A stretch of 50,949 bases of DNA from Secundilactobacillus similis DSM 23365 = JCM 2765 (GTDB lineage: Bacteria; Bacillota; Bacilli; Lactobacillales; Lactobacillaceae). The notes below the pieces were generated by a model. It was not told the DNA's origin, did not search any database, and saw nothing but the letters and a program-made list of their open reading frames with translations. Location: NCBI RefSeq assembly GCF_001311075.1, contig NZ_BBAD01000016.1, positions 1 to 50,949 of the forward strand, written 5' to 3'. Below are positions 30,226 to 36,845 of the stretch, one piece after another. Within the stretch, counting starts at the first letter, position 1. Every line of letters starts with the position of its first letter. A program made the position numbers and the translations under genes.

Positions 30226-30717
30226 GTGTCAAAGCGAAAGGATATTACGGGGCAACGGTTTGGCCGGTTGATTGCAATTGAGCCTCATGGTCGCGATTGT
30301 CGAAACGGTGATTTACTTTGGCTGTGTCAGTGCGATTGTGGCAATCAAATTGTCGTCGATGGTGCCCGGTTGCGTTCTGGATCAACTCAGAGTTGTGGGT
30401 GTTTACGCCGTGACGTGAGTCGAGAAAAGTATCAACAAAACCAGCAGTTTATGGCACAAGTTGGGGATGCCAGCTCGTTGTTTGACCAAAATGGTATCGC
30501 TTTATCATCCGTAAAAGTTTCAACCCGAAACAAATCCGGGATAATTGGGGTCTCTTATGATAAAAACTCCGATAAATGGTTTGCACGGATGATGTACAAG
30601 GGCGCGTACGTCTTATTGAAGAGCTTTGACACCAAGGCTGAAGCAATTGCTGCCCGACAGTTAGCGCAAGAGCAGGTTCGTCAACAGCGGCAGGCTGAGG
30701 CAGACGTAACGAAGTAG
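30226..30717 (+). CDS. Zinc-ribbon plus AP2-type DNA-binding protein
   Basis: 163 residues. The N-terminal 60 residues carry GQRFGRLIAIEP and a cysteine cluster (Cys34, 36, 38, 57, 59; LCQCDCGN and QSCGCL), as in phage-type homing endonuclease relatives. Residues 102-150 (SGIIGVSYDKNSDKWFARM and the following YKGAYVLLKSFDTKAEAIAA) form an AP2/ERF-like DNA-binding domain. No HNH catalytic motif is seen, so it is a binding protein or a nuclease remnant. GTG 30226 follows AGGAAGTGG. Common in lactobacillus phages; here no other phage gene is near. Confidence 0.7.
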   Translation: MSKRKDITGQRFGRLIAIEPHGRDCRNGDLLWLCQCDCGNQIVVDGARLRSGSTQSCGCLRRDVSREKYQQNQQFMAQVGDASSLFDQNGIALSSVKVSTRNKSGIIGVSYDKNSDKWFARMMYKGAYVLLKSFDTKAEAIAARQLAQEQVRQQRQAEADVTK

Positions 30718-31820: not shown

Positions 31821-32071
31821 TCATGTTGTACTCATTTAACTGATTGATTTGAAACGATAGTTGTTTGAAATCACGATGGCTAAATGGTTAACATTACCGA
31901 GATGGTAGGTGATTTGACTTCGTTTGGTTTAGAAATAACATTAAGTTCTAAATGAGAATTTGATAACACATAGTGCACCACTTCGGTTAATTTAGTTGGC
32001 AATGAGTCCTACTATAATAACCAATTTTACCTCAATTATTGTTCACGTTTTATATTCAGGGAGGACTACAT

Positions 32072-33049
32072 ATGAATACAATTGAAGCAGTTGGGAAATG
32101 GGTTGGCCGTTGGTTTACCTTATTAGTTGTGATTTGGGCGGCATTTAACTACGCTGTTCCAAAGACGAGTGCTTGGGTCGTTCCAAACACGTCGTACTTA
32201 CTTGGCATTATTTTGTTTGGGATGGGGCTGACGTTAAAGGGCGCCGACTTTGCTCGGATCGTTAAACGCCCAGTTCCAGTTATCTTAGGCACCATCGCTC
32301 ATTATGTGATCATGCCATTAATCGCGTTTCTACTTTGCCAAATTTTTCAATTAAAGGGTGCAACCGCAGCCGGGGTTATCTTGGTTGGGTCATGCCCAAG
32401 TGGGACGTCGTCTAGCGTTATGGCCTACCTTGCAGGTGGTGACGTTGCATTGGATGTATCGATTGAAACGTTATCAACGCTGTTGGCACCAATTGCTTTG
32501 CCAGGATTGTTGTTGTTGTACGCTGGTCAATACGTTGCCATTCCAACGCAATCGTTATTCTTAAGCACGATCAAGATCGTGCTGGTACCAATTATCTTAG
32601 GGGTTTTGATCCACACGATCTTTGGTAAGAAAATCGATCAATTAACTCGAGCACTGCCACTCATTTCACAAGCCGCAATCCTATTGATCATTGGGGCCGT
32701 TATCTCTGCTAACCACGCAGAACTTTTCTCCGCTGCAACTGCACTGGTTATCCCAGTTGTGATGTTGCACAACCTGTCAGGCTACGGCTTGGGCTACCTC
32801 TTCTCACGGTTGATCCGGTTGAAGGATCCACAACGTAAGGCCATTACCTTTGAAGTTGGGATGCAAGATTCCAGTTTGGGTGCGACGCTTGCGATGAAAT
32901 ACTTCTCACCAGCTGCTGCAATTCCATCAACAATCTTTAGTATCTGGCACAACATTTCTGGCTCGATCTTGTCGTCGTACTGGCGTGGTCGAACTGAAAA
33001 GAAAGCCGCGCAAACAACCGCCGAAACTGCACCAGTTTCTGGTCGGTAA
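32072..33049 (+). CDS. BASS family sodium-dependent transporter
   Basis: 325-residue bile acid:sodium symporter (BASS/PanS/YocS-like) with about nine to ten membrane helices. Seen: GMGLTLKGADF, VGSCPSGTSSSVMAYLAGG with the sodium-site segment, and EVGMQDSSLGATLA, all hallmark motifs. Bacterial relatives move ketopantoate, bile acids or other organic anions; substrate not assignable. ATG 32072 follows GGGAGG; an earlier in-frame start at 32039 is unnecessary. Confidence 0.87.
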   Translation: MNTIEAVGKWVGRWFTLLVVIWAAFNYAVPKTSAWVVPNTSYLLGIILFGMGLTLKGADFARIVKRPVPVILGTIAHYVIMPLIAFLLCQIFQLKGATAAGVILVGSCPSGTSSSVMAYLAGGDVALDVSIETLSTLLAPIALPGLLLLYAGQYVAIPTQSLFLSTIKIVLVPIILGVLIHTIFGKKIDQLTRALPLISQAAILLIIGAVISANHAELFSAATALVIPVVMLHNLSGYGLGYLFSRLIRLKDPQRKAITFEVGMQDSSLGATLAMKYFSPAAAIPSTIFSIWHNISGSILSSYWRGRTEKKAAQTTAETAPVSGR

Positions 33050-33060
33050 ACGATACATCA

Positions 33061-33102
33061 AAAAAGAACTTGTGACGAGTGGTCGTCCAAGTTCTTTTTT
33101 AT
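33061..33102 (+). terminator. Terminator of BASS gene
   Basis: AAAAAAGAACTTG pairs with CAAGTTCTTTTTT, with a small inner GACGA/TCGTC stem. Confidence 0.88.
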
Positions 33103-33186
33103 TGGATTAGGTTTAGTTACGCTTGTGTCCAGCGTAAGCATTCTGAGTTTGTGAGGTGATTCTGGTTTTATATGGTGGAGGATGCC

Positions 33187-33376
33187 GCGGGAGGCTCCGG
33201 CGCTATGCGAAGCTGGAACGCAGTGGCGGGCCTACGAGCTAGGAATGGCTGAGGACCGCCATGTCGGATCTCTCCGGACCCGCGTATGACTAAGGCACTC
33301 GCACCTCGAACCCCACGAGGCACGACTGCCTAAGTCATACCGACACTGCTGAGCCTCGCGCGCCTCCGCCTCCCGC
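33187..33376. repeat. Multibranched GC-rich structured element A
   Basis: About 190 bases. The outer stem GCGGGAGGC/GCCTCCCGC (33187-33195 with 33368-33376) continues after a 3x3 loop as GGCGC/GCGCC (33199-33203 with 33360-33364). Inside are hairpins TGCG/CGCA, TGGCGG/CCGCCA (33224-33261) and a long arm GTATGACTAAGGCA/TGCCTAAGTCATAC (33284-33297 with 33327-33340, 13 of 14 paired) capped by CCTCG/CGAGG. Far more GC-rich than the flanks and non-coding. Not an RNA family I recognise; either a structured RNA or an interspersed repeat. Confidence 0.6.
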
Positions 33377-33733
33377 TACATGGTGCGCTGTCAGTAACTC
33401 AACTGTTAACTGCAACAATCTGGAGTTAACGAAACTGTATAACGATAACATTGGACGGTAACTCAACAACTGCAGAAACGATAGTGGTAAATATTCAGTA
33501 ACCGCGATGAATCAACGGTTGTGCCATACTAAATCTACCAGGCATGCACCACGTTAGCGTGAACTTAATGCCGATACGTTGCCATTCAGACATCCGTTAT
33601 GATTCTGAAGTGTTGACTGATGATCAATTTTGTTGTTTGTCGAATCAACGTTAGTCATTGCAATACTGCTGTAAACCGTACAAAGGGCTTGAGATGATCT
33701 GCAATAGTGCTAAATTGTGCAATGTGAGATGGA
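33377..33733. other. Spacer between structured elements
   Basis: About 357 bases without open frame. GATGATCTGC near 33693-33702 could pair with GCAAATCATC beyond element B, extending its outer stem; otherwise nothing seen. Confidence 0.35.
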
Positions 33734-33913
33734 GGTAAGTGGCTAGGTGTATGCTGTGTCGCGATAATTGGCGGTTGTTGGTGTTCTTCCGACAACCGCC
33801 AATTATCGGGGACGAATTCAAGACTCGCACGGATTTTGGCGAGGCTTGAATTCGAGGGCTGAGACCGCCCTTGGGCTCAGGCCGGCCCCACAGCAGGAAC
33901 CTAGCCGCTTACC
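33734..33913. repeat. Multibranched structured element B
   Basis: 180 bases. The outer stem of 33734-33758 with 33889-33913 has GGTAAG/CTTACC, GGCTAGGT/ACCTAGCC and GCTGTG/CACAGC, interrupted by one G-T pair and a 4x4 loop. Inside: a perfect 17-bp hairpin (33762-33778 with 33792-33808, CGATAATTGGCGGTTGT), a second arm CGAATTCAAG.CTCGC (33813-33854), and a third GGCTGAG/CTCAGGCC-type hairpin. The protein-like reading across it (33768-33971) is a by-product. Structure is striking; function unknown. Confidence 0.65.
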
Positions 33914-34000
33914 GGAATCGACAGTTCAAGCAAATCATCGCATTTCACAAACTAACAGCAACGATGCTTAAGCTGGACACAAACGACAGTAACTATCACG

Positions 34001-34564
34001 CTAGTAAGTTCTAATCTTAGGTGGCTGATACGTCGTCATAAACGTCATAATCGTATCCAGCGAGTCAGCGAAACAGAGTTTTTGTCGATCAGTTGGTGTT
34101 AAAAAGCCATTCGTGACCATGTCGTCAAAGAAACGTTCTAATGAATCGTAATAATGATTGACGTTGTAAAAGGCACACGGATTAGAATTATCGCCTAAGC
34201 GGGCCCAAGAAAAAGCCTCAACGATCTCTTCCAGTGTCCCAGGACCACCAGGTAGTGCCAGACACCCATCGGCCAGCGTCAACATAGTTTGCTTACGGGT
34301 GGCCATATCGGCGACGATTTGAAGATCGGTGAGGCCAGTAAACGCTGCGCCACGGTCAACCAGTTCTTGTGGCATGACACCGTACACCTGACCACCGTCT
34401 CTGAGAACTTGGCGTGCGAGGATGCCCATCAAGCCAATCCCGCCACCGCCGTAGACGAGATCGAGGTGGTGCGTGGCTAAGTAGTGACCAAGTTCCGTAG
34501 CGGCCTGTTCGTAAACGGGGTTTGTGCCCGTGGCGGCACCGCAGTAAACGGCAATTTTTTGCAT
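34001..34564 (-). CDS. LOG family nucleotide phosphoribohydrolase
   Basis: 187-residue Rossmann protein of the LOG (TIGR00730) family, which removes the base from nucleoside 5'-monophosphates such as cytokinin or AMP. Seen: VYGGGGIGLMG and the active-site PGGPGTLEE motif. ATG 34564 follows GGAG. Its promoter region is shared with the divergent Xre gene. The physiological substrate in lactobacilli is not known. Confidence 0.9.
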   Translation of the reverse strand: MQKIAVYCGAATGTNPVYEQAATELGHYLATHHLDLVYGGGGIGLMGILARQVLRDGGQVYGVMPQELVDRGAAFTGLTDLQIVADMATRKQTMLTLADGCLALPGGPGTLEEIVEAFSWARLGDNSNPCAFYNVNHYYDSLERFFDDMVTNGFLTPTDRQKLCFADSLDTIMTFMTTYQPPKIRTY

Positions 34565-35072: not shown

Positions 35073-36845
35073 ATGGCATTTAACCTATGGATGTCACACC
35101 TTCTCATTTCAGTGTTTTTTGTGGCGGGCTTTATTACCTACTATGAGTGGCACGTCAAATGGGCAATTCAAACACCCCGACCGACAACGGTGGGGGAATG
35201 GCTGAGACGATTTTCAGTCATCGGTGTGACGGTGCTACTCTGCTTATGGCTTCAGTATATTACTGGTGCCAAGGCGGTTAGCGTATTACTATTTTTAAAT
35301 TTACAACTTTTTGTCATTGCTTACCCACTATTAAATGATCGACTCACCGACTTCGAGTTTTGGCTTCAGGGCGCAATTGGCGGTTCGTTTTGGTTTATTA
35401 ACCATACGTTTGACCTCGAATTATTCATTGGGGTTGCCTTGGTTCTCATCATCATGGGCACGGTACTGCGCTTATTTCGAAATCAGATTCGTTATAGTTG
35501 GGCCTTTCATATGATCTACGTAGTGGTGTTATCGGTTGCCTACTGGACGAGCTACGTTGGCATCGATAACTGGCAACGGTTTGGCTATATCGCGATGTTT
35601 ATGGCGATGAGTGTCTATTCATGTGCTTATAGTAATGCCACTCACAAACGCGCCTTAGAGCGGGCAAAACTCACGCACGAAGTTAATTTTGATGCGTTAA
35701 CTGGTGCCAAGAGTTACACCAACTTTTTAAGTGAATCGGTCGCCATTTTTAACCAAATTCGAGATGACCAGCAGCCGTTGACCTTTGCTGAATTAGATAT
35801 TGATAATTTTAAGGGAATCAACGATCGCTATAGTCACTTGGCAGGTAATGGGGCCTTGGTTGCGGTGACAAACCTCTTAAAAACGACGTTGTCACACTAC
35901 GTCCAGCCCTGGCAGCTTTATCGAACTGGTGGTGAAGAGTTCGTTATCCTGTTTCCAAATGGTGACGCTCAAGAAACGGTACCGGTTGTCCGAGCGTGTT
36001 GGCAAGCACTACGACAAATGGATTACCACTACCACGATCAATTCATCAAAATAACGGCATCGTTTGGAGTAACAACGGTCCGTCAAGCAGACGTTGTTTT
36101 GGCTGATAGCTATGGTCGAGCGGATGATAGTTTGTATATTTCGAAGCAACATGGCCGAGACTGTGTCACGGTTGATGGTGAGACGTTAGATGTCAATCCA
36201 TTGTCAACGGTCGTTGTGACCCACACGTATTTCACCCAACCCGTTATTCAAATTGCGGATGAGCAACCGATTTGTCAGGAGTTATTAATGCGGACGTTTG
36301 ATCACGGTCGGTGGGTAGTGCCAGAGTCGTTTGACCTTGGTGTTACGACTCAGGTGTCCATGATGCGGCAGTTGTTAGCGCAACTGAGCGTCAAGGTCAT
36401 TGCCATCAATGTGACGCGAGCTCAATTTGTTGATCCGCACCACATTAAGCAGTTACAGCGATTTGTAGCGGCAACGCCAGAACTTCGACGATTGACACTG
36501 GAGTTAAGCGAAACACCAACTATGGCTGAGCTTAAGCAGATTTACCCGCAGTACCAAAATGCCGGGATTTTAGTGATGTTAGACAGTGACTCGATTCTAC
36601 AACAGCGGAAATTGCTTGCTGAGGGCCTTGCGTACATTGATGGGATCAAAGTTGATGTGCAAGCATTAAGCGTTGCTGATCAACAATCGATTCAACAATG
36701 GCAACAACACCTTGAGGACCACCATAAGCGTTTGATCTTGAAGAATATTGAAACGTTAGCTGATTATGAACTAGCGCAGATGTTGAATGTTCGATATGGT
36801 CAAGGTTACTTCTTTGGTCGGCCGGTGATGCCACGGATGATTTAA
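35073..36845 (+). CDS. Membrane GGDEF-EAL protein (diguanylate cyclase)
   Basis: 590 residues: about six N-terminal membrane helices (residues 5-185), a GGDEF domain (residues 200-370; LDIDNFKGIND with Asp242/Asp244, active-site GGEEF at 286-290) and an EAL domain (400-590). The GGEEF is intact, so cyclic di-GMP synthesis is likely. The EAL keeps Glu403, Asn446, Glu477, Lys526 and Gln577 but the DD motif reads DS (504-505) and the EGxE motif reads KNIE, so hydrolysis is unlikely. ATG 35073 follows AAGGG. Membrane-bound c-di-GMP producer, sensing unknown. Confidence 0.88.
   Translation: MAFNLWMSHLLISVFFVAGFITYYEWHVKWAIQTPRPTTVGEWLRRFSVIGVTVLLCLWLQYITGAKAVSVLLFLNLQLFVIAYPLLNDRLTDFEFWLQGAIGGSFWFINHTFDLELFIGVALVLIIMGTVLRLFRNQIRYSWAFHMIYVVVLSVAYWTSYVGIDNWQRFGYIAMFMAMSVYSCAYSNATHKRALERAKLTHEVNFDALTGAKSYTNFLSESVAIFNQIRDDQQPLTFAELDIDNFKGINDRYSHLAGNGALVAVTNLLKTTLSHYVQPWQLYRTGGEEFVILFPNGDAQETVPVVRACWQALRQMDYHYHDQFIKITASFGVTTVRQADVVLADSYGRADDSLYISKQHGRDCVTVDGETLDVNPLSTVVVTHTYFTQPVIQIADEQPICQELLMRTFDHGRWVVPESFDLGVTTQVSMMRQLLAQLSVKVIAINVTRAQFVDPHHIKQLQRFVAATPELRRLTLELSETPTMAELKQIYPQYQNAGILVMLDSDSILQQRKLLAEGLAYIDGIKVDVQALSVADQQSIQQWQQHLEDHHKRLILKNIETLADYELAQMLNVRYGQGYFFGRPVMPRMI

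Follow-up and report, generated by a model that had tools for sequence, protein, structure and literature searches.

REPINs appear to be the nearest published analogue of the paired-fold element described here. In the passages of PMC3116915 that treat REP doublets, 93% of 430 doublets are inverted and the doublet is the unit. Like the REPINs presented in those passages (PMC3116915), the element analysed below is a high-copy extragenic structured repeat that has an inverted doublet as its unit and is probably non-autonomous. REPIN arms are short (20–40 bp) palindromes, whereas the arms found here are multibranched folds that range from about 147 to 200 nt, and the pair that they form is enclosed by TIRs in two genera. 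Furthermore, REPINs have a RAYT (Y1 transposase), whereas the element described here appears to need none, as more than half of its carrier genomes lack a detected one (24 of 45).

MITEs, as characterized in part of PMC3049150, are short, geneless and highly base-paired repeats that have TIRs and occur in many copies. The element described here likewise has TIRs, lacks a transposase gene of its own and is accompanied by a second repeat with the same ends. It differs from MITEs in that neither a target-site duplication nor a parent insertion sequence was found for it in the copies and TIR neighbourhoods searched, and in that its interior fold appears to be older and more widespread than its TIRs.

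The same source describes BOX, RUP and SPRITE of Streptococcus pneumoniae as structured, modular, intergenic repeats that are proposed to be non-autonomous mobile elements, and mentions the proposal that BOX repeats act on co-transcribed genes (PMC3049150). Compared by description, these repeats of a relative of lactic acid bacteria resemble the present element in being structured, modular and intergenic; unlike the arms found here, those of BOX do not form multi-way junctions paired head-to-head. The EFAR repeats of Enterococcus faecalis are modular, about 170 bp long and located near stop codons, and resemble the paired element as far as this general description goes. GOLLD, ROOL, OLE and HEARO share with it an elaborate, covarying and non-coding fold, as outlined in part of PMC12286853. 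According to the same part, GOLLD and ROOL are phage- and prophage-encoded (PMC12286853), whereas the element described here is a high-copy chromosomal repeat and, in contrast to all four RNAs, has no Rfam match. Its arm fold, absent from Rfam 15, is one of the more elaborate covarying folds in a bacterial repeat.

No earlier description of the paired-fold repeat was found in the open-access literature searched, outside of which most subscription journals lie. In the portions of the repeat papers covered by a term search, including the MITE review PMC10969869, lactobacilli are unmentioned; in those of a 2008 stem-loop survey, L. johnsonii appears in one table and nothing more concerns lactobacilli.

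The repeat unit and its paired arms

The window, i.e. the whole stretch of DNA that was analysed, comprises 50,949 nt of contig NZ_BBAD01000016.1 from Secundilactobacillus similis. A sequence-only reading had located a multibranched structure at 33734–33913, in which a 25-base outer stem encloses a 17-bp hairpin and two further arms, and had held this nested pairing to be beyond chance and accounted for by no gene. Position and architecture are both borne out. Folded as RNA, 33734–33913 (+) reaches −114.9 kcal/mol (z −12.4), while 200 dinucleotide shuffles average −61.8 (sd 4.3); not one of them is as stable, which rules out chance folding. The minus strand folds at −101.7 kcal/mol (z −11.4). 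In the predicted fold, 15 pairs, a 3 × 3 internal loop and another 7 pairs make up the outer stem; the 17 Watson-Crick pairs of the hairpin are extended by a G.U and two more pairs to a total of 20, and the two further arms are present in the junction. A covariance model, R1, built on 24 Levilactobacillus copies, matches the structure in the window with an E-value of 3.9e-23 and assigns it slightly longer limits, 33727–33920 (+), with a GGA/GGA internal loop near the base. This structure, supported by folding, by the model and by covariation, is hereafter called arm B.

Arm B lies between a gene encoding an SBF-family transporter (32039–33049, +) and a gene with a Lysine_decarbox Pfam match (34001–34564, −). 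No ORF of at least 80 aa is found between 33049 and 34001, which rules out a protein-coding explanation. An Rfam 15 scan of the whole window returned two tRNAs only and left the arm B region without a match at gathering score, a relaxed search of 33000–34050 gave six matches that are each far under their gathering score, and nine loci with many arms gave no Rfam match. A known Rfam RNA, one of the outcomes that would have refuted the sequence-only reading, is therefore ruled out as the identity of arm B.

Many copies of the structure were found in its own genome (S. similis, 3.45 Mb in 176 contigs): of 109 candidates, the 40 that were scored all align to the query over at least 200 of its 220 bases, and the covariance model gives at least 89 matches with 150 of 674 candidates scored. 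When 30 fetched copies are aligned, the conserved stretch exceeds 180 bases and is bounded by inverted repeats. Judged from this conserved extent and from the sequence, the whole TIR-bounded unit in the window is about 0.87 kb long (33117–33989). Its left TIR (33117–33141, +), placed by pattern matches, is itself a small hairpin (TTACGC..GCGTAA) and is followed by a further matching inner part, AGTTTGTGA (33146–33154, +). The right TIR (33964–33989, −) and its inner part, TTCACAAACT (33944–33953, −), were located on the alignment of copies. Just beyond the left end stands a terminator-like hairpin with A- and T-runs, 3′ of the SBF-family gene (33060–33100, +), of which a consensus scan recovers 33074–33087; such hairpins are often found directly outside the TIRs in S. 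similis. The flanks of arms are complementary to each other beyond shuffled partners (5.54 versus 4.61, sd 0.06), reaching at least 8 bp in 17 of 142 cases.

Within the unit, arm B is accompanied by a second multibranched fold, arm A (33184–33380, −), which is a divergent inverted relative of arm B: it matches model R1 at 33371–33192 (−) with an E-value of 0.0012 (window) and is more stable on the minus strand in nine of ten copies. The spacer between the arms (33372–33726) has one weak promoter-like match and no ORF of at least 80 aa. When 13 S. similis loci were searched jointly, a second inverted arm reached an E-value of 0.05 in six, strongly in one (L016) and weakly in the rest.

The TIR core pattern CTTGTGTCCAGCGTAAGCAT, allowing up to two mismatches, occurs 119 times forward and 124 times reverse in the S. 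similis genome, against once per strand for a reversed-pattern control. A longer core, allowing up to three mismatches, occurs 122 and 127 times in S. similis versus 0–1 times in each of 14 congeners. These data indicate that the unit was amplified in this species. Both ends could be located in 11 of the 30 fetched copies, with 699–905 bp between inner TIR limits; about 120 copies of 0.7–0.9 kb would make up roughly 3% of the genome. More than half of the fetched copies (16 of 30) lie within 1.5 kb of a contig end, which suggests that the repeat breaks the assembly, and such repeats probably also hamper short-read assembly of S. similis. Contigs with copies near their ends include C6, C29, C37 and C79, among others.

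The inverted arrangement is not peculiar to the window. Neighbour, gene-setting and polarity counts draw on 211 of 254 model matches, spread over 76 of 77 loci; shadow matches on the opposite strand were excluded, as were some rows that were weak or truncated at an end, and weaker rows were added by hand. Among arm neighbours less than 700 bp apart in the named loci, 57 of 70 are head-to-head ('−+'), nine are '−−', four are '++' and none is '+−'. The near-complete Levilactobacillus genome G154 carries at least 123 arms (150 of 777 candidates scored), and all of its 37 pairs of close neighbours are '−+'. Their spacers cluster at 83 bp, with 34 of the 37 between 63 and 113 bp and extremes of 13 and 198 bp. 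As 29 of these pairs couple one arm scoring above 100 bits with one scoring below, the unit is asymmetric. Eleven of 20 fetched G154 units, picked by eye, have common outer flanks, and most of these 11 are bounded on both sides by a sequence close to ACTRAAGGTTGAAAG in inverted orientation. As these ends differ from the TIRs of S. similis, both genera have TIRs around the pair, but not the same ones. With its fixed head-to-head pairing, the unit lends itself to testing a model of transposition.

Two further observations concern individual units. In six G154 units (L228, L233, L234, L235, L238 and L245), a TATAAT-like stretch lies in the outer flank beside the low-scoring arm and could be an inward promoter. 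At locus L053 (G015:C34, about 175257–175487), a type-1 arm is flanked by what resembles the outer stem of a type-2 arm, which gives the impression that one arm was inserted into another or took the place of its interior.

Selection on the fold of a single strand

Compensatory changes, which the sequence-only reading had expected of a genuine structure, are abundant among the homologues. Among 30 copies of arm B, 98.9% of paired cells are standard pairs and 11 of 67 pairs have changed on both sides (covariation score 0.134 versus 0.070 when shuffled). Such changes affect 40 of 66 pairs in the 24 Levilactobacillus copies (0.306 versus 0.145) and 59 of 66 pairs in 149 distinct copies of a model-fitted alignment (0.552 versus 0.179). 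Alignment A3 leaves out L040, which is partial, as well as L053, L068 and L069, and alignment A4 holds the best 150 of 178 matches, fitted to the model. In all three sets of copies, the covariation measures drop strongly when the partner is shifted by 1–3 columns. Arm A has eight of 67 pairs with both sides changed (12 copies). The letters of junctions and internal loops are conserved among arms; a GCUGUG/CACAGC helix and, close to the base, the GGA/GGA internal loop are among the features that they share. Some other genera have variants (about 147 nt) in which the fold has fewer arms.

The fold is moreover polarized. Read on the strand that runs outward from the spacer, arm B has 157 G.T against 32 A.C cells and arm A has 39 against 2, these being counts of cells and not of independent events. 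The outward strand is more stable in 193 of the 211 copies, by a mean of 8.3 kcal/mol, whereas 152 control windows split 72/80; in 20 units of G154, it is more stable in all 20 high-scoring arms and in 19 of the 20 low-scoring ones. In one alignment, of 24 copies made with MAFFT, raw G.T and A.C counts are near equal (68 versus 66). This near-equality is partly due to misaligned columns and to one conserved helix position, which in many copies is C.A on the outward strand and a standard pair on the opposite strand; 18 of these 24 copies are still more stable on the outward strand.

Covariation and G.U polarity together show that a fold of one strand is under selection. The polarity fits either an outward RNA or a single DNA strand with its 3′ end at that end of the element, and does not fit plain correction of a palindrome. 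The hundreds of diverged copies constitute a natural data set on whether selection acts on RNA or on single-stranded DNA.

Turnover, distribution and a second repeat with the same ends

Over about 57 kb that are syntenic between the sister species L. fuyuanensis and L. parabrevis, the former has 19 arms and the latter 18. In a chosen set of 17 orthologous arm pairs, identities range from 0.63 to 0.98, and whole arms have been swapped between copies at the same site. L. parabrevis lacks the element at one site, which lies within a hairpin-like flank, and this absence may reflect a loss; one apparent deletion has left a remnant.

Model R1 matches at least 45 of 201 sampled Lactobacillaceae genomes, belonging to at least 10 of 40 genera, at least seven of 246 genomes of the order, all of them Lactobacillaceae, and at least one of 200 genomes of the class, namely S. 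similis itself. These are lower bounds, since runs on sets of over 40 genomes were limited to 13 scored candidates per genome and used stricter filters. The carriers named among the matches listed are Levilactobacillus and Companilactobacillus species and two records labelled Lactobacillus sp. The best-sampled genomes of several genera of lactic acid bacteria hold around a hundred or more copies. Spaced 20-kb stretches contain arm matches in two of eight cases in G154, none of five in G049, one of two in G015 and none of five in S. similis, the last being mid-contig and therefore biased low.

BLASTN found no match for either of two queries in plasmid and phage records, which rules out a plasmid or phage element. 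In a viral contig collection, an exact search with the arm pattern gave one match and a narrower pattern none. The sole match (L226:248–280) lies on a 4.9-kb contig that may be a bacterial fragment.

Four of 20 stretches fetched around TIRs in S. similis contain a different repeat of 320 bp (L206:4857–5176, L211:383–702, L212:342–661 and L216:302–621) whose outer ends are those of the paired-fold unit but whose interior is unrelated. Three of its copies are 97.6–98.2% identical, the fourth being 90–91% identical. The left ends of three copies lie directly after the T-run of a terminator-like hairpin. An unrelated repeat with the same ends suggests the behaviour of non-autonomous elements that would share one transposase.

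Ten proteins encoded near orphan TIRs were scanned: nine belong to ordinary host families, one has no match and none is a transposase associated with these TIRs. Within the 20 fetched stretches, no autonomous copy was found beside orphan TIRs. An IscB, IsrB or TnpB gene, which would be expected next to a HEARO or OMEGA RNA, is encountered neither for these ten proteins nor among six neighbours in the window. A Y1_Tnp domain is detected in 21 of 45 carrier and 37 of 156 non-carrier genomes; the 24 carriers in which none is detected rule out a RAYT as a necessary partner.

Explanations for the paired folds

Taken together, arm B probably forms the right-hand part of a mobile element that is chromosomal and non-autonomous, similar to MITEs and REPINs, and made of a pair of structure-selected folds. 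The unit comprises two ornate folds of about 150–200 nt placed head-to-head (<− spacer −>), enclosed here by TIRs, geneless and located in intergenic chromosomal DNA. It would be moved in trans by a putative enzyme encoded elsewhere and would enter preferentially beside the 3′ ends of genes, in line with the gene setting of the B end described below. The moving machinery would recognize the fold, either as RNA or as the single DNA strand that has its 3′ end at that end of the element, and selection to be copied would keep the pairs while the sequence drifts. The element would thus behave as a REPIN that has much bulkier end structures and is contained in a MITE, different lineages packing the fold pair in different TIRs. 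Among the three options of the sequence-only reading, a mobile palindromic repeat is the best fit, given the copies, the TIRs and a burst absent from 14 congeners; what that reading missed is that arm B is one arm of an inverted pair within a larger element. For the option of a recombination target, the pertinent observation is the swapping of arms between copies. Several results weigh against a mobile element. None of the ten proteins scanned near TIRs is a transposase that goes with these ends, target-site duplications are not apparent by eye in the 11 copies with both ends, and direct repeats in arm flanks are not above chance (3.34 versus 3.51). The fold also predates both sets of TIRs and is more widely distributed than they are, so that the TIR element may do no more than carry it. 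The lack of any plasmid or phage match is odd for such an element; REP-like repeats are described as chromosomal. Moreover, the paired units of the named loci have no preference for convergent genes (7 of 37, by a crude longest-ORF proxy).

It is possible, although rather doubtful, that each arm is instead the gene of a structured non-coding RNA, spread by transposons, with transcription that starts from the spacer, runs outward and stops at the terminator of the neighbouring gene; that some or even all of the copies have a function for the host, such as protein binding, seems possible to the same limited degree. The very strong covariation, the G.T excess of both arms on the outward strand, the greater stability of that strand in nearly all copies and the conserved letters of junctions and internal loops are what such an RNA would produce, and they uphold the structured-RNA option of the sequence-only reading as far as selection on a single-strand fold is concerned. 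That option fares less well on transcription: 142 copies have neither a positioned −10/−35 upstream nor a T-run downstream of the arms, promoter-like matches in the window region number one versus 1.2 expected, and spacers can be as short as 13 bp. The C.A helix position, which forms a standard pair on the other strand only, is likewise unfavourable, and as arms are absent from 30 of the 40 sampled genera, such an RNA would not be generally essential. Arms acting as 3′-end elements of neighbouring mRNAs, i.e. terminators or stabilizers spread by host selection, are improbable, even though their setting recalls the action proposed for BOX repeats in part of PMC3049150. By a crude longest-ORF proxy that skips units at locus edges, 97 of 118 units are intergenic, some arms end only 5–26 bp from a stop codon, and in S. 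similis an opposite-strand gene has its 3′ end towards the B end in 25 of 30 copies and towards the left end in seven of 12 (crude ORF proxy). However, arms are antisense to the genes that they face, in the orientation that folds less well, they are not followed by a T-run, units of S. similis often have a distinct terminator-like hairpin beyond the TIR, and the remaining 21 of the 118 units overlap a predicted ORF by the same crude proxy.

Least probable of all is that covariation is a by-product of DNA repair, in which template switching at quasi-palindromes and gene conversion would generate paired changes with no selection on the fold. Long hairpins are prone to template switching, and the whole-arm swaps at the same site imply that covarying changes can travel in blocks. 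This process predicts equal G.T and A.C, nearly as in the raw counts of the 24-copy MAFFT alignment, whereas the outward G.T excess is strong elsewhere, and it leaves the conserved internal loops and junctions unexplained. It is also conceivable, albeit unlikely, that the paired folds represent a new class of bacterial mobile element whose two ends, each an ornate fold of about 185 nt, are themselves the functional parts, the TIR-bounded transposons of individual lineages being a later packaging. Since the outward, best-folding strand has its 3′ end at that end of the element, the folds could provide structured termini for a copying process with an RNA or single-stranded DNA intermediate (ITR-like or SINE-like). 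We know of no such copying mode in bacterial MITEs.

Apart from the repeat, the window contains a gene (35073–36845, +) for a protein with GGDEF and EAL domains, of the cyclic-di-GMP type; such proteins are uncommon in lactobacilli. It also encodes a small protein (30226–30717, +) with a sub-threshold match to an AP2 domain (E-value 7.4e-06, below the Pfam cut-off).
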